This document shows positions 9,270 to 19,298 of a stretch of 64,000 nucleotides of DNA, in pieces. The DNA is from Novipirellula aureliae (GTDB taxonomy: Bacteria; Planctomycetota; Planctomycetia; Pirellulales; Pirellulaceae). The notes beneath the pieces were generated by a model. It was not told the origin of the DNA. It saw only the letters and a list, made by a program, of their open reading frames with translations, and did no database searches. How positions within the stretch are numbered: the stretch's first letter is position 1; each line of letters begins with the position of its first letter. The DNA lies in the NCBI RefSeq assembly GCF_007860185.1, contig NZ_SJPY01000001.1, forward strand, positions 891,132 through 955,131. Reading direction: 5' to 3'. A program made the position numbers and the translations under genes.

Positions 9270-10223
9270 TCACCGACCGATCAATGCTTTGGCACCTTGG
9301 CTGGCCAGCACTTCGCTGGCTTGATTGGCGATTTCGATTGCGATTGCCTGCATCTCACCGGAGGCGAGCGGCAGCGAGCGTTGATCGGCGAGTCGAACCG
9401 AGCCATCGGCCGACAGCACGACGGATTCGAGGTGCAATGAATCCCCTTGGAAAGAGGCATAGGCGGCAATCGGGGCGAGGCAGCCGCCATTGAGGTTCGC
9501 CAGCAGCGTTCGTTCGGCGGTCACGGCGGCTCGCGATCGTGGGTCGTTGAGGCATCGTGTCTGCGCAATGGTCGCCTCGGCTTCCGCGAGCACTTCGATC
9601 GCCAATGCTCCCTGACCGGGTGCGGGCAGCATTTCCGAGAGGGGCAGTTCGATTCGCGGCAGAGATTCCATTTCCAAGCGGAGTATCCCGGCGGCGGCCA
9701 GCATGATGGCGTCGTAGTCACCGTTTTCCAGCTTTGCGAGTCGAGTTTGCAAATTGCCACGAATCGGTTCGATGCTCAAATCGCTGCGGTGATGCTTCAT
9801 TTGCGCCGCCCTTCGCCGGCTTCCCGTTCCGATCCGAGCTTTATGAGGCAGCGTATCGAGCGACCAGCGGGCGGGAGAAACGATGCAGTCGTTAACGATC
9901 TCGCGCTGCGGCACGGCCACCAAGTGCAAGCGTGGATCGACTTCGGTTGGCAAATCTTTCATCGAATGGACGGCGATATCCGCTTCATCGTCGAGTAGCG
10001 CTTGCTGGATCCGCTTGGTGAACACACCGACTTGGCGGGTCGAATCGATCGGTCGCATGTCGGTGTCCCCGCGACTGACAAGCGGCACCAACTCGGTTTG
10101 CTGGCCCGCTTGCTCAAGCAGCATTGCGACATGTTTGGCCTGCCACATCGCCAAGGGGCTATGTCGAGTCGCAATCCGTAGCGGACGATCCGCCGACGAT
10201 GAATTCGTTGTATTTGGTGACAA
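9270..10223 (-). CDS. hemC: Porphobilinogen deaminase (hydroxymethylbilane synthase)
   Basis: This enzyme polymerises four porphobilinogens to hydroxymethylbilane in haem synthesis. Recognisable parts are LRIATRHSPLAMWQA at the N-terminus, HSMKDLPTEVDPRL, GTGSRRRAAQMKHHRSDL, IRGNLQTRLAKLENGDYD, and the dipyrromethane-attachment cysteine in NLNGGCLAPIAAYA. I propose TTG 10223 as start (317 residues, normal for HemC), with AAAAGAG about 9 bases upstream. The longer reading frame to 10463 adds about 80 residues with no family resemblance. It is divergent from the kinase gene. Confidence 0.9.
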   Translation of the reverse strand: MSPNTTNSSSADRPLRIATRHSPLAMWQAKHVAMLLEQAGQQTELVPLVSRGDTDMRPIDSTRQVGVFTKRIQQALLDDEADIAVHSMKDLPTEVDPRLHLVAVPQREIVNDCIVSPARWSLDTLPHKARIGTGSRRRAAQMKHHRSDLSIEPIRGNLQTRLAKLENGDYDAIMLAAAGILRLEMESLPRIELPLSEMLPAPGQGALAIEVLAEAEATIAQTRCLNDPRSRAAVTAERTLLANLNGGCLAPIAAYASFQGDSLHLESVVLSADGSVRLADQRSLPLASGEMQAIAIEIANQASEVLASQGAKALIGR

Positions 10224-10571
10224 AATGGGGACTCTTTTGGGAAGCGGCGTCGCAGAAAACACAAAACCAGGATGGGGCCAACGCGGCAGTAGGCATAGCT
10301 TAATGCCGTTTCGGGTAAACCGGCAAGCAGCAATGGTTGGAGTTTCGCCGATTGGGGTAGGGGGTGGGAATGTGCGAAAGTCGGCGAAAGCCTGGACTCC
10401 AACCTTAGTGACAAACAACCGTTTGTACCGATTTTGCCATCGAGTGCTGGGATGGGCTGGCAAATTGTCGTTGCATTTAGGAAGTGAAGAAAATTTGGGA
10501 GTTCATCATCGGCAAGGTAGTCTATAATCGAGCGGTTCTTCTCTTCCCTATTTCATGCTCCATCGATTGCA
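10224..10571. promoter_or_regulatory. Divergent intergenic region with a -10-like TATAAT
   Basis: This 348-base gap separates hemC (minus) from the kinase gene (plus) and must hold both promoters. A perfect TATAAT lies at 10523-10528 in plus orientation, 44 bases before the proposed kinase start. No convincing -35 element was seen at the usual distance (TTGGGA at 10495-10500 is 22 bases away), so the call is weak. Confidence 0.3.
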
Positions 10572-13337
10572 TTGTCCGATTCTTCCTCCTCAACGAATGG
10601 CCCCCTTACCGAACCGCCGACATGTGTTGGTGACTTGGCGAGCGGAACGGCATCGCGACTGAGTCAAAGCGGCGACTTTAGCGCTGACTTTAGCTCCGAT
10701 GGGCATGGGGGCGTCGAAGGCATGACCGAGCTTGAGGAGCGGCATATCCCGTCACGGCTTGGCGGCTATGAGATCAAGCAATTGATCGGCAGCGGTGGGA
10801 TGGGTCAAGTCTATTTGGCGGAGCATTTGCGGATGCAGCGAACCGTGGCGATGAAGACGCTGCCGCTAAAAATGGTGAAGGATGAGCACGCGATCAACCG
10901 GTTTTACGAGGAGGTTCGTGCGGCATCACGCGTTTTGCATCCCAACATCGTCACCGCATTCGATGCTGGTGAAGACAACGGTTTCCATTTTTTGGCGATG
11001 GAATACATCGACGGCATGACGCTGACGCAAATCGTGGCTCGCCGCGGTCCGATGCCGGTCGGCCAAGCAGCCTCGGTGATCCGGCAAGCAGCGATGGGGT
11101 TATTGTTTGCTCATCGAGCTGGGATCGTCCACCGCGACGTCAAGCCGGGCAACTTGATGCGTTCGATCGACGGCACGGTCAAGGTGCTCGATCTCGGCTT
11201 GGCCCGGATCAGCAATATTGACTTGACGCTGCACCCCGACAATCCCTCCGAAGCGGAACCGATCAAACGAGACAAGGGCCGATTGGTAGGGACGTTACCA
11301 TTCATGTCGCCGGAACAATTGGAGGACCCTGATTCTGCTGATCCTCGCAGCGACATTTACTCGCTTGGAGCGACAATGTTTTTCTTGCTGACGGGCCAGC
11401 CGCCGTTTACAGGAGAGTACTTGGACCAAGTCTACGGGCATCGACATGGTGAGATCCCCGACTTGATGCAGTTTTGCGGCGATGTTGATTTCCAGTTTGC
11501 CAATTTGTTTCGCCGCATGATGGCCAAATCACCTGACGAGCGTTATGCATCGCTTGATGAAGTGATCGAAGACCTTGGCGAGTATGCGGACAAGTCGGAC
11601 GAGCCGATTTGGCTAACCGAGTTTGCATCACGGCAATCAGCGGGCGACTCATCAACATTTGCAGGCGGCAGTACCTCGCAGCAGGTCGCGAACGTCTTGT
11701 CGATCGATCTGGGGATGTTTCTCAGTTCGGCTGCGGAAGCATCCCCCTTAGGACGCATCCATCTACTGAACGCAGGCGGAGAGGGTCGTAAACTATTTCG
11801 CATGGCGATTGCCAGCGAGCATGGAGAATTGCTTTACGGCGAAGATGCGATGCAGCTTCGCACGCGTGCGAACAAAAAGTTGGTGCATTGCGTGCCGATG
11901 TATATTGGCAGGCCGACGGTGGATCGAGAAGTCGCAGGTCGCCGATGTCCGCCCGAGGTGCTACTAGCGTTAATGATTCGCAAGATCATCCGAAACGCTT
12001 GGAGCCACAACGGGCCGCCGACTGCCGTCGCTTTGACGATCCCCTCCAGCTACGATCAATTGCATCGCAGAAGCATCTTGCAGGCGGCATCGATGGCGGG
12101 ACTGCATTCGGTTCGATTGGTCGACCGTAGTGTCGCGGCGGTTCAATCGTTGATTTTCGAGCCAAGACTTGAAACACTGCTTGAATCGCCCGGTGATCCG
12201 AACGGGGAGCTATTGCCGCTCGAGCCTGCTGCCGAATCGGAAGCGAACCGCAGTCGCGAGGCAGCGGACAGGACGACCAACACGACGACTGCGAACACCA
12301 ACCAAGTGGACGACCGGTCAAAACTGCGTCACGCCAGCGAAGAAAAGATTCTCTTTATCGGCTTAACGGGGCAAGCAAGTGAGACAGCGTTATTCGTGCG
12401 TGATGTCAATCGAATTCGCCAAGTCGCGACGGCAGGTCACTGGCATACCGGCACGTTACCATGGCAACAAAAATTAGTGGAAGTGACCGCTGAATTGTTT
12501 ATGGCAGCGGCGGGGATTGATCCGCGCCGATCGGATCAAGCTCCCATGCTTCAGGTTGCTTGTGAAAACGCAATGAACGCTTTGTTGATATTGCCGTCCG
12601 CGAAAGTCACCCTATTTTTAGCTGGCATGAAGAGAACGGTCACAATCCGCCGGGCTCAATGGCTGGAAAAATGCACAGGCCTGCTCGAGGGACTTCGCTC
12701 GTCGCTGATGACCGCTTGCCACGATGCCAATGTGTCACGCGCTCAAATCGATACGGTGATCATGCTCGGTCCCTTGCTTCGCATTCGGGAGATCCAGCAT
12801 GATCTGCTTCAAGGGTTTCGAGGTGATGTTTCCATTCAAGCGGTTGACCGCAGCGATGTGGCTCGCGGTGCAGCATCTTGTTTGGCAGGCGAACTTCCCG
12901 GGCGTGGTGGAAATGCGAGTCCGCCGCAAGCGGTTGCCGGTCAAACCATCGGTATCTTGGTCGAGGACGGTAAGCGTCGCCGCAAAGTACTACCGATCTT
13001 GCCTTGTGGAACCCCCTATCCAGCGCGAACCAATCGGCGATTGAACGTCAATCATGAACGAAAGATGATGTCCATTTCACTGGTCGAATCGTCTGGAGTT
13101 TCTCGTGGTGATTGGCAGTCCCTCGGACGCTACGACTTGGAAATCAGCAATGACTCAAGCACTGGCGTCAATCGGTCGCGGACCATCGGGTTCGAGATCA
13201 ACATCAATGGTTTGTTGGTTGTTCGCGCTCAAAAATCGAGGATGCCCGGGAGCGAGAAGTTACAGACGCTTCCCAAGGCGACCTTGTCCGATGAGCAGGT
13301 CGCCGAGTGGACGCGGTGGATCGACCGTTTTGATTGA
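10572..13337 (+). CDS. Ser/Thr protein kinase fused to an Hsp70-like region
   Basis: Residues about 65-340 form a Hanks-type kinase: glycine loop IGSGGMGQV, VAMK lysine (K95), catalytic HRDVKPGN (D189), DLG in place of DFG (D207), and GTLPFMSPEQ before the substrate site. From about 370 the protein resembles the Hsp70 nucleotide-binding domain: VLSIDLGMF (phosphate 1), VALTIPSSYDQLHRRS followed by AGLHSVRLVDRSVAA (compare VPAYF..QR..T..A..AGL.V.R.INEPTAA), a degenerate phosphate 2 (FIGLTGQASETALFV), and VIMLGPLLRIREI. The last 130 residues resemble the Hsp70 substrate-binding beta region (LPILPCGTPYPAR). No transmembrane helix was seen, so it is probably cytoplasmic. Start TTG 10572 is uncertain; the next in-frame ATG is 10722, still before the kinase. 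Confidence 0.88.
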   Translation: MSDSSSSTNGPLTEPPTCVGDLASGTASRLSQSGDFSADFSSDGHGGVEGMTELEERHIPSRLGGYEIKQLIGSGGMGQVYLAEHLRMQRTVAMKTLPLKMVKDEHAINRFYEEVRAASRVLHPNIVTAFDAGEDNGFHFLAMEYIDGMTLTQIVARRGPMPVGQAASVIRQAAMGLLFAHRAGIVHRDVKPGNLMRSIDGTVKVLDLGLARISNIDLTLHPDNPSEAEPIKRDKGRLVGTLPFMSPEQLEDPDSADPRSDIYSLGATMFFLLTGQPPFTGEYLDQVYGHRHGEIPDLMQFCGDVDFQFANLFRRMMAKSPDERYASLDEVIEDLGEYADKSDEPIWLTEFASRQSAGDSSTFAGGSTSQQVANVLSIDLGMFLSSAAEASPLGRIHLLNAGGEGRKLFRMAIASEHGELLYGEDAMQLRTRANKKLVHCVPMYIGRPTVDREVAGRRCPPEVLLALMIRKIIRNAWSHNGPPTAVALTIPSSYDQLHRRSILQAASMAGLHSVRLVDRSVAAVQSLIFEPRLETLLESPGDPNGELLPLEPAAESEANRSREAADRTTNTTTANTNQVDDRSKLRHASEEKILFIGLTGQASETALFVRDVNRIRQVATAGHWHTGTLPWQQKLVEVTAELFMAAAGIDPRRSDQAPMLQVACENAMNALLILPSAKVTLFLAGMKRTVTIRRAQWLEKCTGLLEGLRSSLMTACHDANVSRAQIDTVIMLGPLLRIREIQHDLLQGFRGDVSIQAVDRSDVARGAASCLAGELPGRGGNASPPQAVAGQTIGILVEDGKRRRKVLPILPCGTPYPARTNRRLNVNHERKMMSISLVESSGVSRGDWQSLGRYDLEISNDSSTGVNRSRTIGFEININGLLVVRAQKSRMPGSEKLQTLPKATLSDEQVAEWTRWIDRFD

Positions 13338-14577: not shown

Positions 14578-15807
14578 ATGGCATCCGAGCACGACCGATT
14601 AAAGGACTTTCTAATCGATGCAGCGATGTTGCTACATCGCTACGGTACGCCGTCGCACCGGCTCGAACGAACGATGACAAAGGTGGGGACAGCGTTAGGT
14701 TGCGATTCCGTCTTTTTATACACTCCGACCGCGTTGGTCATTTCAATCACGATTGATGGCGAAGAAAGCACGGTGGTGCGGCGTGTCGACTCGGGGGAAG
14801 TCCATGTCGATAAGTTGCTGTGCACCGATGATGTGCTCGATCGCCTAGAGCAAAAAGAGATCACGATTGAGGAAGCGAGAAAGCAGCTATCCGAAATTGA
14901 CCGAGCGCCACCGCTTTTTCCTTTTTGGGTTTATGCGTTTGCATGCGCTGCGGGTTGTGGGTCGCTGGCGGTTCTCTTTCGCGGTCGCCCCACCGAGGTA
15001 TTGGCCGCATCGGCGATCGGTTTTGGCATTGTGGTATTCGAAAAATCTCAGTCATGGCTCGGACAAGATCGGAGCCTGTTGTTGCCTGTCTCTGGTTTTG
15101 CGGCGGCAATCGTATCGTTAGCGATTGCCCAGTTTGTGACGCCAATTGACCATCGGTTGGTAACGCTCGCAGGCGTAATCATCTTGATTCCTGGATTGAG
15201 CTTAACCGTTGCGATGACGGAGTTGGCGGTCGGACATCTATCGGCAGGCGTGGCGCGATTGGCGGGCGCAATGGTCTCACTCTTGACGCTATTCTTCGGC
15301 GCGGCAATCGCGTGGCGGCTAGCCGAATCATGGCGGCAACTACCGATCAAACCCGTCGCAGCGGAAATCACCGCAGCGCTGCCGCCATCGTGGGTGGTCC
15401 AGTGGGCTGCGCTGCTGATTGCACCGATCGCCTTTGCAATCATCTTTCAAGCCCGCATCGCCCAGTGGCCGGTCATCATTGCGGTTTCCATCATGGGAAT
15501 CGCAACGAGCCGATTCGTGAATCCGTACTATGGCGTTGAGGTCGCTTCGTTTACGGCCGCGCTCGTGGTTGGCTGCGGTAGTAATCTCTACGCACGACTG
15601 CGGAATCGGCCCGCCCTGATCGCACTGACGCCTGCGTTGATCGTTCTCGTGCCTGGTTCGTTCAGCTACCGGACGCTCAATGCGCTCATGGACCATGATA
15701 CGATCGCAGGGGTAGAACTTGGGTTTAACACGATCTTGATCGCAATGTGTCTTGTTGGTGGGCTGTTGACATCCAATGCGGTCGTCCCACCGAAGCGGAT
15801 CATGTAA
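14578..15807 (+). CDS. ThrE/YjjP-type threonine/serine exporter family protein
   Basis: A 409-residue integral membrane protein of the DUF1212/ThrE superfamily. The N-terminal cytoplasmic domain has the typical FLIDAAMLLHRYGTPSHRLE and VFLYTPTALVISI; then about ten hydrophobic helices follow, including a second ThrE-like half with LVPGSF. Both halves (YjjP-like and YjjB-like) are in one chain, as in actinobacterial ThrE. The likely role is export of threonine, serine or another small metabolite. Its 3' end overlaps the convergent transglutaminase-like gene by 8 bases. ATG 14578 is preceded by GGAG at 13 bases, a weak site. Confidence 0.8.
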   Translation: MASEHDRLKDFLIDAAMLLHRYGTPSHRLERTMTKVGTALGCDSVFLYTPTALVISITIDGEESTVVRRVDSGEVHVDKLLCTDDVLDRLEQKEITIEEARKQLSEIDRAPPLFPFWVYAFACAAGCGSLAVLFRGRPTEVLAASAIGFGIVVFEKSQSWLGQDRSLLLPVSGFAAAIVSLAIAQFVTPIDHRLVTLAGVIILIPGLSLTVAMTELAVGHLSAGVARLAGAMVSLLTLFFGAAIAWRLAESWRQLPIKPVAAEITAALPPSWVVQWAALLIAPIAFAIIFQARIAQWPVIIAVSIMGIATSRFVNPYYGVEVASFTAALVVGCGSNLYARLRNRPALIALTPALIVLVPGSFSYRTLNALMDHDTIAGVELGFNTILIAMCLVGGLLTSNAVVPPKRIM

Positions 15808-16738
15808 GGGCGCCCTGCCCTTCCACGGGCGTGACGTCGACGTTGACTTTTAAGGACGTGTCTCCACCGCCGATAATCACGCCGCGCATGGGACTGACGT
15901 CGCCATAATCACGTCCGATGCAGATCGGAATATGATCCGTGCTACAAAAGCAAGCGTTGGTGGGGTCGCAGTCAATCCAGCCGAGCTTTTGGCCTCCATA
16001 AACACTTAGCCAAGCGTGCGATTCATCGGCACCGACAAGCCGCGTTTGACCTTCAGCAGGTCGCGTCCGCAAATAGCCGCTGACGTAACGGGCTGGCAAG
16101 CCGATCGATCGTAAACAAGCGATTTGAATATGAGCGAAGTCTTGACAAACTCCTGCCCGCAATTGGAAGGCTTCTTCCGTTTCGGTGTGCACGTGAGTCG
16201 CTGCGGTGTCGTAGCGAAAGTCCTGATGAATCCGCCGGGTCAAATCGAGTGCGGCATCGACAATCGGCCGGGAATCAGCGAACGAGACGAGGGCATAGTC
16301 GGCAAACATTTTGCCCGAGACAACACGCGGTGAATCGAAGCGAAATTCGTGGATCATTCGCCCCGAAGCTCCGACGATGTCTCTCGATTCGGATTGGATC
16401 GACTGCCAATCCGGTGAGCTCGATACGTGCAAACATTTCGCTGGCTCGACCGTTACTTCACTGATGACGGTAGCGGTGAGTTCTCGGTGCATCCGCTCAA
16501 TGGCAAACGAGTAGACACGGTTCCCGAAGTAGTCCTCATGCTCGGCCACTCGTTCGGGATGAGGGGTGATCGTGACATTCGAAAAATGACAAGTGATGGA
16601 TGGTCTCGTTCGAGGTTGCATCCGCAATTGATTTTGGCATATCGCTACCGATTCGCTGTACCGGTAAGCGGTGCGATGTTCAATGCGATAACGCACAGAT
16701 TCGTTGGCGGCTTGGTTATCGGCAGAGGGGGTTGGCAT
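15800..16738 (-). CDS. Transglutaminase-like cysteine peptidase family protein
   Basis: A 312-residue protein with a bacterial transglutaminase N-terminal beta domain (YRIEHRTAYRYSESVAICQNQLRM) and a transglutaminase core with the catalytic Cys in LRAGVCQDFAHIQIACLRSIGLPARYVSGY, the His in DESHAWLSVY and the Asp in GWIDCDPTN. I chose ATG 16738 because AGGA lies just upstream; it starts 7 bases after the stop of the ATP-grasp gene, so the two form an operon. In the published comparative work on ATP-grasp amidoligases such genes are predicted to take part in peptide tagging or its reversal; no activity is proven for this type. Confidence 0.87.
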   Translation of the reverse strand: MPTPSADNQAANESVRYRIEHRTAYRYSESVAICQNQLRMQPRTRPSITCHFSNVTITPHPERVAEHEDYFGNRVYSFAIERMHRELTATVISEVTVEPAKCLHVSSSPDWQSIQSESRDIVGASGRMIHEFRFDSPRVVSGKMFADYALVSFADSRPIVDAALDLTRRIHQDFRYDTAATHVHTETEEAFQLRAGVCQDFAHIQIACLRSIGLPARYVSGYLRTRPAEGQTRLVGADESHAWLSVYGGQKLGWIDCDPTNACFCSTDHIPICIGRDYGDVSPMRGVIIGGGDTSLKVNVDVTPVEGQGALT

Positions 16739-16745
16739 GCGATTC

Positions 16746-19298
16746 CTAGCTAAGTTCCGAAGGGCCAACGCCAGTCAAAGCGCGTGTCGTTCCGGTGTGA
16801 ATTAGGTATCGCGCAGCGATTGCATCCGACAAATCCGGTAACCCTTCAATCAGTTTATTGAGTAGTTTTTGCAAGCGAAATCGCGTGCCCGAACCATTCA
16901 CTTCGCTAAGTCGTATTGGATCCGCCATGCGTAGCGTGTGCAGCAGACCGCTAGCCAATTTTTCATCCGCACCAAGTCCAACAAGTTTTGCGTCGGTCGG
17001 TAGCTGAGTGATAAGTTCACCAATTTGCTGCAATTGAAACCGTAGCGACCGCGGGTTGGTTTCATCGGTCACGAGTAGATCAATGGTTGCTTCGGGGCGG
17101 ACCAAATTCAAGTATCGCTGGCGGTAGGTCATCAGGCTATCGAGCGCATCGAGAACGGCTTCGGAGAGCGCGGTTTCTCGCTCAATCGGCTGGACCAACG
17201 TTGCGTCGAGTAGTTCCGCTGTCTGGTCGGCCCGCTCAATCCGGCGACCTAACTGCAGGAACCGCCATCCGTGAGTTCGTGTCGTGCTCTCGTTTGCGAT
17301 ACCGGCAAACGCTAAGAGATCGGTAATCAAACAGTTCAATTGTTCGATCAAGCGTCCCATGTTGTCATCATCGTGCGGTGTCTTGTCTTCGCTATCGCGT
17401 CCAATCCGCTGGATGATTCGATAGGCATCGATCGAAATTCGATCTCGAACCGCACGCGCGTTCGAGACAATCGATTCGATCGTTGACTGCAAACCACGCG
17501 GTTGGTTCTTGTCAATCACGGACTCGGGTAACATGCTTTCGATCTTTGGAAGGCTACCCACCATTCCGTCGACCACATAGCCTGGTTCGATTTGGCCGAC
17601 TGCTGCCAATGCCGCCAAGAGGCGAGGGATTTCGGGTAGATCGCGAAGTTCATTTTCACCTGAGATGCGGACGACGGTCGCGCGGAGCAACCGCGTGATC
17701 GACTCGGCACGCTCCGCATATCGGCCAAGCCAAAACAAGTGCTCTGCCACACGGCTGGGCAACTCATCACCACTTCGCTTAAGCCGGACCGTTGCATCGG
17801 ACGGTTTCAGCAGCGTAATTTCCAAGTCAACCGATTGTTGGCTTGAGACCCAACAATCCATCGTCAGGTTGCCGCTAGTGGTCGACCGCTCTAGCTCATC
17901 TTCGAGTGGGCTGAGGCGGGCGAGTGCTCCCGGCAAGACCTCGACGCCGCTGTGTGTTTGCAGCTGGAAGCACCTCAGGGCAACGTGCCATGGAATCAGT
18001 TTGTCGCCGGACCAAACCGGAGTCGTGCTATGGTCAAGTTTTTGTTGAGCGACGTACTCGTGAGGTTTTTCTTTGACTTCAGCGATTAGCCTTGCCTTGG
18101 CTTCGTCAGACATTGCCGACGGGATTTGGGGGGGTGTACCACTGACCGCAAAGGCGGGTCGGATAACCAGCGTCTCAAGATTGCTCAAGACAAAGTCACA
18201 TTCGGTTTTCCCGCCACACCAATAGGTCGCCACGTTGGGGAGCGAAAGCGATTGCCCAAACAGAAACCGACTGGCGGCGGGCAAAAACGGCAAGAGCGCT
18301 GGAGTTTGGGCCATCACACTTCCGATCGAATTGACAACCGCAACGTTGTCCTCGCGAATCGCGTGGAGCAAACCCGTCGGGCCCTCGTCCGAAGTGGGAT
18401 CGAGTTCGAGTGGATCGCACTTGCGATCGGAAACATGCCGCCACAATACCTCGATCGGCAATAGGCCACCGAGCGTTTTCAAATTCAATTCACCGCCGCG
18501 AACCGCCAAGTCTCGCCCTTCGACCAGCGTGAAGCCTAGATATCGCGCCAAATAGGCGTCTTCAAAATCGCGGTAATTGTCACCGCCGGGTGTTAACAAA
18601 GCGACGCGAGGATTATCACGCATTCGAGGTGCCAACGAACGCATATGAGAGCGAAGAGAATCGAAAAAACCGGCCAATCGGCGAGTGTTGCATTGGCGAA
18701 TCAATTGCGGAAACACGCGGCTTGTCAAGATTCGGTTTTCAAGCAAATACCCGAGTCCGCTCGGCGCTCGGGTGCGATCGCCTGTAACCCACCAAGTACC
18801 ATCGTTGGCTCTAACAATATCGGTCGCAGTAACATGCAATCGCTTTCCACTTGCCGTAGGCAAGTTATGATAAGCTCGTTGAAAAAACGGGTTCGCCCAA
18901 AGCACCTCGGGCGGAATGATCTTTTCTTTAATCAACTGCTGGTTACCGAGCAGATCGTCGAGGACGGCTTCGAGCAATACGGTTCGCTGGGCCAAGCCTG
19001 CTTCGAGACGAGCCCATGAACCGGGGTCGATTACCAAGGGGATTGACGACAATCGCCAAGGACGAATCGAGCGACCTTCATCGCTATCCACGTTGAAGGT
19101 GGTTCCATTTTCGTGAACCAGTTGCTCGATCGTTTCCGCACGTTCTTGGATCCCTTGTGGACTAAGCGATTGAAAGTAATCGGCGATGCTTTGCCAGTGC
19201 GGACGGATCTGCCCATCGGGGCTTTTGCATTCGTCATAACGCGTGGGCGAAGCAGCGTAGCCACTTAGAGAGCAAGATGGGGTAGCAGTAGTTGACAA
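16746..19298 (-). CDS. Circularly permuted ATP-grasp (DUF404/DUF407) fused to alpha-E domain (DUF403)
   Basis: An 850-residue fusion. The N-terminal 480 residues match the circularly permuted ATP-grasp family: RPWRLSSIPLVIDPGSWA, VLWANPFFQRAYH, VALLTPGGDNYRDFEDAYLARYLG, LVEGRDLAVRGGELNLKTL. From about 515 an alpha-E region begins with the signature SRVAEHLFWLGRYAERAES and continues as helices to the end. In many bacteria the two are separate adjacent genes; here they are one chain. The ATP-grasp is predicted to make a peptide-like amide bond. It is directly followed by the transglutaminase-like gene. Confidence 0.88.
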   Translation of the reverse strand: MSTTATPSCSLSGYAASPTRYDECKSPDGQIRPHWQSIADYFQSLSPQGIQERAETIEQLVHENGTTFNVDSDEGRSIRPWRLSSIPLVIDPGSWARLEAGLAQRTVLLEAVLDDLLGNQQLIKEKIIPPEVLWANPFFQRAYHNLPTASGKRLHVTATDIVRANDGTWWVTGDRTRAPSGLGYLLENRILTSRVFPQLIRQCNTRRLAGFFDSLRSHMRSLAPRMRDNPRVALLTPGGDNYRDFEDAYLARYLGFTLVEGRDLAVRGGELNLKTLGGLLPIEVLWRHVSDRKCDPLELDPTSDEGPTGLLHAIREDNVAVVNSIGSVMAQTPALLPFLPAASRFLFGQSLSLPNVATYWCGGKTECDFVLSNLETLVIRPAFAVSGTPPQIPSAMSDEAKARLIAEVKEKPHEYVAQQKLDHSTTPVWSGDKLIPWHVALRCFQLQTHSGVEVLPGALARLSPLEDELERSTTSGNLTMDCWVSSQQSVDLEITLLKPSDATVRLKRSGDELPSRVAEHLFWLGRYAERAESITRLLRATVVRISGENELRDLPEIPRLLAALAAVGQIEPGYVVDGMVGSLPKIESMLPESVIDKNQPRGLQSTIESIVSNARAVRDRISIDAYRIIQRIGRDSEDKTPHDDDNMGRLIEQLNCLITDLLAFAGIANESTTRTHGWRFLQLGRRIERADQTAELLDATLVQPIERETALSEAVLDALDSLMTYRQRYLNLVRPEATIDLLVTDETNPRSLRFQLQQIGELITQLPTDAKLVGLGADEKLASGLLHTLRMADPIRLSEVNGSGTRFRLQKLLNKLIEGLPDLSDAIAARYLIHTGTTRALTGVGPSELS

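Follow-up and report, generated by a model that had tools for sequence, protein, structure and literature searches.

The window analyzed here, a 64,000-nucleotide stretch of Novipirellula aureliae DNA, encodes a protein in which a PknB-type Ser/Thr kinase bears a C-terminal pseudo-Hsp70, composed of a DnaK-fold nucleotide-binding domain (NBD) and a beta substrate-binding domain (SBD-beta), which probably no longer binds or hydrolyzes ATP in the Hsp70 way. The fusion is real and its layout is already known; in the literature searched, the conserved pseudo-ATPase variant is the new part. We consider it rather probable that an active kinase is controlled or targeted by this nucleotide-independent, lid-less pseudo-Hsp70.

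The distinguished parts of the fusion gene, together with its neighbor hemC, are listed in Table 1. The TTG start at position 10572 is supported by the orthologs, which begin with LS[D/E]SSSS at the matching position, and the true start of hemC lies probably near position 10190. A pattern search detected the motif SSSS...P(I/L/T)xxxPT in the N-terminal tail of 20 of the 67 fused proteins assembled in and around the Pirellulaceae. A Ser-run followed by a P(I/T)xDEPTR-like motif is common to the otherwise variable tails of many orthologs (L274, L253, L284 and others), and may possibly represent a phosphosite or docking motif. The Hsp70 region covers residues from about 373 to 912 and comprises the nucleotide-binding and beta substrate-binding domains without the alpha lid.

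Table 1. Features of the kinase-pseudo-Hsp70 locus (positions in the window).
Feature	Position	Strand	Remarks
hemC (hydroxymethylbilane synthase)	9270..10463	-	conserved head-to-head neighbor of the fusion gene
Kinase-pseudo-Hsp70 fusion gene	10572..13337	+	921 aa; TTG start; stop codon within range
Variable acidic, Ser-rich N-terminal tail, residues 1-60	10572..10751	+	9-36% identity to orthologs
PknB-like Ser/Thr kinase domain, residues 61-345	10752..11606	+	catalytic residues complete; Pfam and PknB matches
Short kinase-Hsp70 linker, residues 346-372	11607..11687	+	
Pseudo nucleotide-binding domain, part 1, residues 373-530	11688..12161	+	Hsp70 alignment; model
Degenerate phosphate-1 loop IDLGMF (DnaK IDLGTT)	11703..11720	+	Met at the T11 position
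PMYIG at the DnaK K70 position (KRxxG)	11895..11909	+	K70 gone
VDRSVAA at the INEPTAA position	12120..12140	+	R519 for E171
Low-complexity variable insert, residues 531-588	12162..12335	+	variable length; 0-25% ortholog identity; pLDDT <50
Pseudo nucleotide-binding domain, part 2, residues 589-775	12336..12896	+	within best Pfam HSP70 stretch; model
GLTGQASE replacing phosphate-2 loop DLGGGTFD	12360..12383	+	D194 gone; D201 replaced by Glu
GPLLRIR replacing adenosine loop GGSTRVP	12768..12788	+	Hsp70 alignment
SBD-beta-like domain and short C-terminal helix, residues 791-921; no alpha lid	12942..13334	+	strand pattern of the model

The kinase half bears all elements of the Hanks-type motif, as the sequence-only reading had claimed. 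The Pfam Pkinase profile matches residues 66-326 (E = 1.4e-43), and residues 61-345 match PknB of M. tuberculosis among PDB sequences (E = 8e-49). The beta3 Lys, the alphaC Glu, HRDxKxxN, DxG and PE (the APE-type Glu) are invariant in all 67 fused proteins, and the Gly loop is kept in 65-66 of them. The NCBIfam model PknB_PASTA_kin gives 263 bits (cut-off 450).

Homology of the C-terminal half to Hsp70 was found with the Pfam HSP70 profile (E = 9.1e-24; 84 bits, cut-off 20.6), which matches in two stretches, the best being residues 589-912, and whose alignment stops at position 509 of 599. Compared with PDB sequences, residues 370-921 match BiP and DnaK (E = 3e-20). The order of Hsp70 landmarks that had been proposed after about residue 370 is borne out, with the landmarks in register with DnaK: SIDLGMF corresponds to phosphate loop 1, TIPSSY...R...AGL to the TVPAYF region, GLTGQASET to phosphate loop 2 and GPLLRI to the GGSTR adenosine loop, and LPCGTPYPAR lies inside SBD-beta. 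A structure model of the Hsp70 half (pLDDT 76, pTM 0.78), with its residues 167-223, which cover the variable insert, disordered, was built from an alignment of the window protein, one ortholog, one Hsp70 of an archaeal MAG and DnaK proteins of viral contigs. The model superposes on DnaK 7krt (Z 39.5 over 476 residues, 2.5 A) and also on BiP, Ssb and Sse1; because DnaK rows were present in the input alignment, the fold is partly imposed, and the superposition shows compatibility more than discovery. The sequence statistics are evidence for Hsp70 homology that is independent of the model. A full-length model, obtained from two alignment rows, had a pLDDT of 31. An unrelated ATPase in place of Hsp70 was rejected by the Pfam HSP70 match, the PDB matches to BiP and DnaK, and the model superposition.

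In Hsp70 proteins, ATP-coupled client binding is driven by the residues that contact ATP and by a hydrophobic linker between the domains. Two kinds of fusion were distinguished by the state of this machinery: (i) ten of the 67 keep the canonical ATPase site (K70, E171, D194 and T199), with the motifs DLGTT, KR, NEPT and DLGGGT and small departures in two of the ten, and (ii) 57, including the window protein, form a pseudo clade whose ATP site is replaced. The T11 position is Met in 53 of the 57 pseudo-clade proteins vs. Thr in all 29 canonical sequences compared, the equivalents of K70, E171 and D194 are each lost in 56 of 57 (E171 giving way to Arg or Lys in 56), and D201 is replaced by Glu in 47. 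When the intermediate G004 is set aside, none of the 56 remaining proteins retains the adenine contact K270, most have another residue in place of S274, and the hydrophobic interdomain linker (VLLL) is gapped, shortened or polar, with gaps or Pro/Ala/Gln at its positions. An inner clade (n = 46) has several invariant or nearly invariant residues, among others M382, R515, R519, W624, E774, P776 and W848; R519 is present in 46 of 46, at a position occupied by Glu in 30 of 30 canonical sequences. In the window protein the equivalents of K70, E171, D194, T199, K270 and S274 are all replaced, and thus the degeneracy first noticed in the phosphate-2 loop (GLTGQASET) is confirmed and proves wider. 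With these ATP-site residues and the linker replaced, established Hsp70 biochemistry makes ATP hydrolysis in the Hsp70 manner by the pseudo-Hsp70 very unlikely and ATP binding improbable; ATP binding in some other way may be compatible with the loss of the classical residues. The degenerate nucleotide site therefore supports, as probable, the suggestion of a regulatory module in the Hsp70 half rather than a chaperone driven by ATP.

The search of 60 related genomes revealed further long ORFs, and 19 of the 20 regions fetched carry a kinase + HSP70 ORF. Within the host family, 84 of 241 species-level genomes, distributed over 14 of 68 genera, match the window Hsp70 half at E <= 1e-19; one of these 14 genera (that of genome G021) has the canonical kind. 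Among 199 genomes sampled from the phylum, the window genome is joined by only two that match at E 1e-16, their ORFs being 711 and 665 residues long. A single kinase-HSP70 fusion was identified in another planctomycete family (L314:2387-4906, + strand); its Hsp70 match is strong (E = 7e-94), and a solo Hsp70 lies downstream of it on that contig. A contig scan gave two loci only, the ortholog of Planctomycetes bacterium CA13, a relative of the same genus, and one Hsp70 of an archaeal MAG. An assembly chimera was rejected, as the same fused ORF is present in dozens of species-level genomes.

In a quick tree of the Hsp70 half, the 57 pseudo-clade members are monophyletic (SH-aLRT 98; 100 for the 56 without G004, at which long branches meet). 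The canonical fusions are interspersed with solo Hsp70s, which may reflect several gains or losses of the fusion. The kinase tree places 44 of the pseudo-clade kinases (without G004) in one clade (93), near nine canonical-fusion kinases. A 1139-residue fusion of genome G021 (L046:6892-10308, - strand) has some 270 residues between its domains, and its kinase does not cluster with those of the other canonical fusions, which suggests a separate fusion event. Two adjacent, divergent Hsp70-like proteins are encoded in one genome (L064 and L065; G000:C1:476031 and 478371), and L065 contains a DUF3731 "DNA-K related" domain. Both halves of the fusion are under strong purifying selection, and for most close pairs dN/dS is about 0.005-0.1 in the kinase as well as in the NBD and the SBD; the pair L043/L288, from related genomes, is more relaxed (NBD 0.19, SBD 0.29).

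The gene hemC was identified (tblastn) in 36 fetched fusion loci of several genera besides the window, and it is divergent from the fusion gene, in head-to-head arrangement, in all 25 loci examined for orientation; the fetched flanks of several other pseudo-clade genera lack it. No other conserved neighbor was found among the fetched fusion loci, and further widely recurring neighbor "families" were rejected as shadow ORFs of the fusion gene or of hemC. The conserved adjacency shows vertical inheritance; a functional link of the fusion to tetrapyrrole synthesis is no more than possible. Elsewhere in the window, a transglutaminase-like protein is encoded beside a protein of 850 residues (16746-19298; the pair at 15800-19298, - strand), next to a gene for a ThrE-type exporter (14578-15807).

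From the conserved pseudo-ATPase we infer a role in regulation of the kinase: the pseudo-Hsp70 would determine the place or time of kinase action as a regulatory or docking domain independent of nucleotide, and may do so by binding a partner protein or a peptide, or by dimerizing. Conjecturally, the old metal site may be occupied by R519 (in place of E171) together with two conserved acids, D379 and E604, which would fix the conformation of the cleft. We tentatively propose that the pseudo-chaperone might serve as a kinase receptor, in which, throughout the clade, the ATP cycle would have been exchanged for nucleotide-independent sensing, a specific protein or peptide being bound in the cleft or the beta domain and switching the kinase.

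Among the alternatives, the one that survives best is that SBD-beta still binds unfolded or extended peptides and recruits misfolded clients to the kinase, the recruitment suggested in the sequence-only reading, here without ATP control. The strands and Gly of SBD-beta are kept, the equivalents of I401, I438, V440 and L484 are hydrophobic and the domain is under purifying selection, but the interdomain linker is lost, the lid is missing, F426 is replaced by Leu/Ile in 54 of 56 proteins, V436 by Met or others, and M404 is gapped in 46 of 56, and we regard client recruitment as doubtful. It is unlikely that the Hsp70 half binds nucleotide without hydrolyzing it, like Ssz1 or Hsp110, e.g., as a DnaK partner or exchange factor bringing the kinase to the chaperone system: although Sse1/Hsp110 appears in the Foldseek and VIA lists and an Ssz1 complex in the Foldseek list (ranked behind DnaK and BiP), and the equivalents of G341, R345 and E267 are mostly kept, K270, S274, G342 and the phosphate loops are replaced. 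That the protein is a genuine ATP-driven Hsp70 chaperone with a kinase attached is scarcely credible: ten relatives elsewhere in the family combine the same layout with a canonical ATPase site, but the window protein lacks the lid and has lost, like nearly the whole clade, all four classical catalytic residues. Decay of the Hsp70 half into a relic without function would agree with the degenerate nucleotide site, but it is highly improbable given dN/dS <0.1 in most pairs, the invariant residues newly acquired by the clade and the long persistence in at least 13 genera.

Pseudoenzymes are familiar among kinases, whereas a strongly conserved pseudo-Hsp70 with consistent replacements is much less so. 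Since the same architecture is found in relatives whose ATP site is intact and in relatives whose site is replaced, the contribution of an Hsp70 module to a kinase can be compared, in a natural setting, with and without ATP. The pseudo-Hsp70 would also be a testable input domain for the Planctomycetota, which are rich in kinases of unknown input.

Genome G380, which we take to be that of R. baltica SH1, contains a single ORF in which HSP70 is fused to a kinase, and this ORF is an ortholog of the window gene. A 2005 survey of prokaryotic Ser/Thr kinases lists "Kinase + HSP70" in Pirellula sp. (gi|32474490) and remarks on the chaperone homology of this kinase (PMC1262709). This protein has the same order as the fusion, with an N-terminal kinase and a C-terminal HSP70, and is by inference almost certainly the Rhodopirellula baltica ortholog of the window gene. 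The claim of a new signaling layout was consequently rejected, in view of the survey entry and of the wide distribution of the fusion, common in the Pirellulaceae. The passages of the survey on "Kinase + HSP70" make no mention of ATP-site loss, of the clade or of its distribution (PMC1262709). A 2024 paper on planctomycete kinases leaves Hsp70 unmentioned, and the literature searched for a pseudo-ATPase Hsp70-kinase contained nothing relevant and no description of the ATP-site loss.

The fusion may be compared with several known systems. Its kinase domain is like that of PknB and PASTA-type kinases, but it has a C-terminal Hsp70 where those have PASTA repeats. The Hsp70 half has the NBD and SBD-beta in common, in fold and sequence, with DnaK and with the lid-less solo Hsp70s of planctomycetes, which likewise end early; in contrast to these, it has a replaced ATP site and linker and an attached kinase. 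Ssz1 and Hsp110, both structural matches to the Hsp70-half model (Foldseek, VIA), are non-canonical Hsp70s that have the Hsp70 fold without a normal ATPase cycle; both bind ATP, whereas the pseudo-Hsp70 has lost the adenine and phosphate contacts. In the Kae1-Bud32 fusion an actin/Hsp70-superfamily fold and a protein-kinase fold are likewise combined in one chain, but the families are different, their order is opposite and the role is in tRNA modification.
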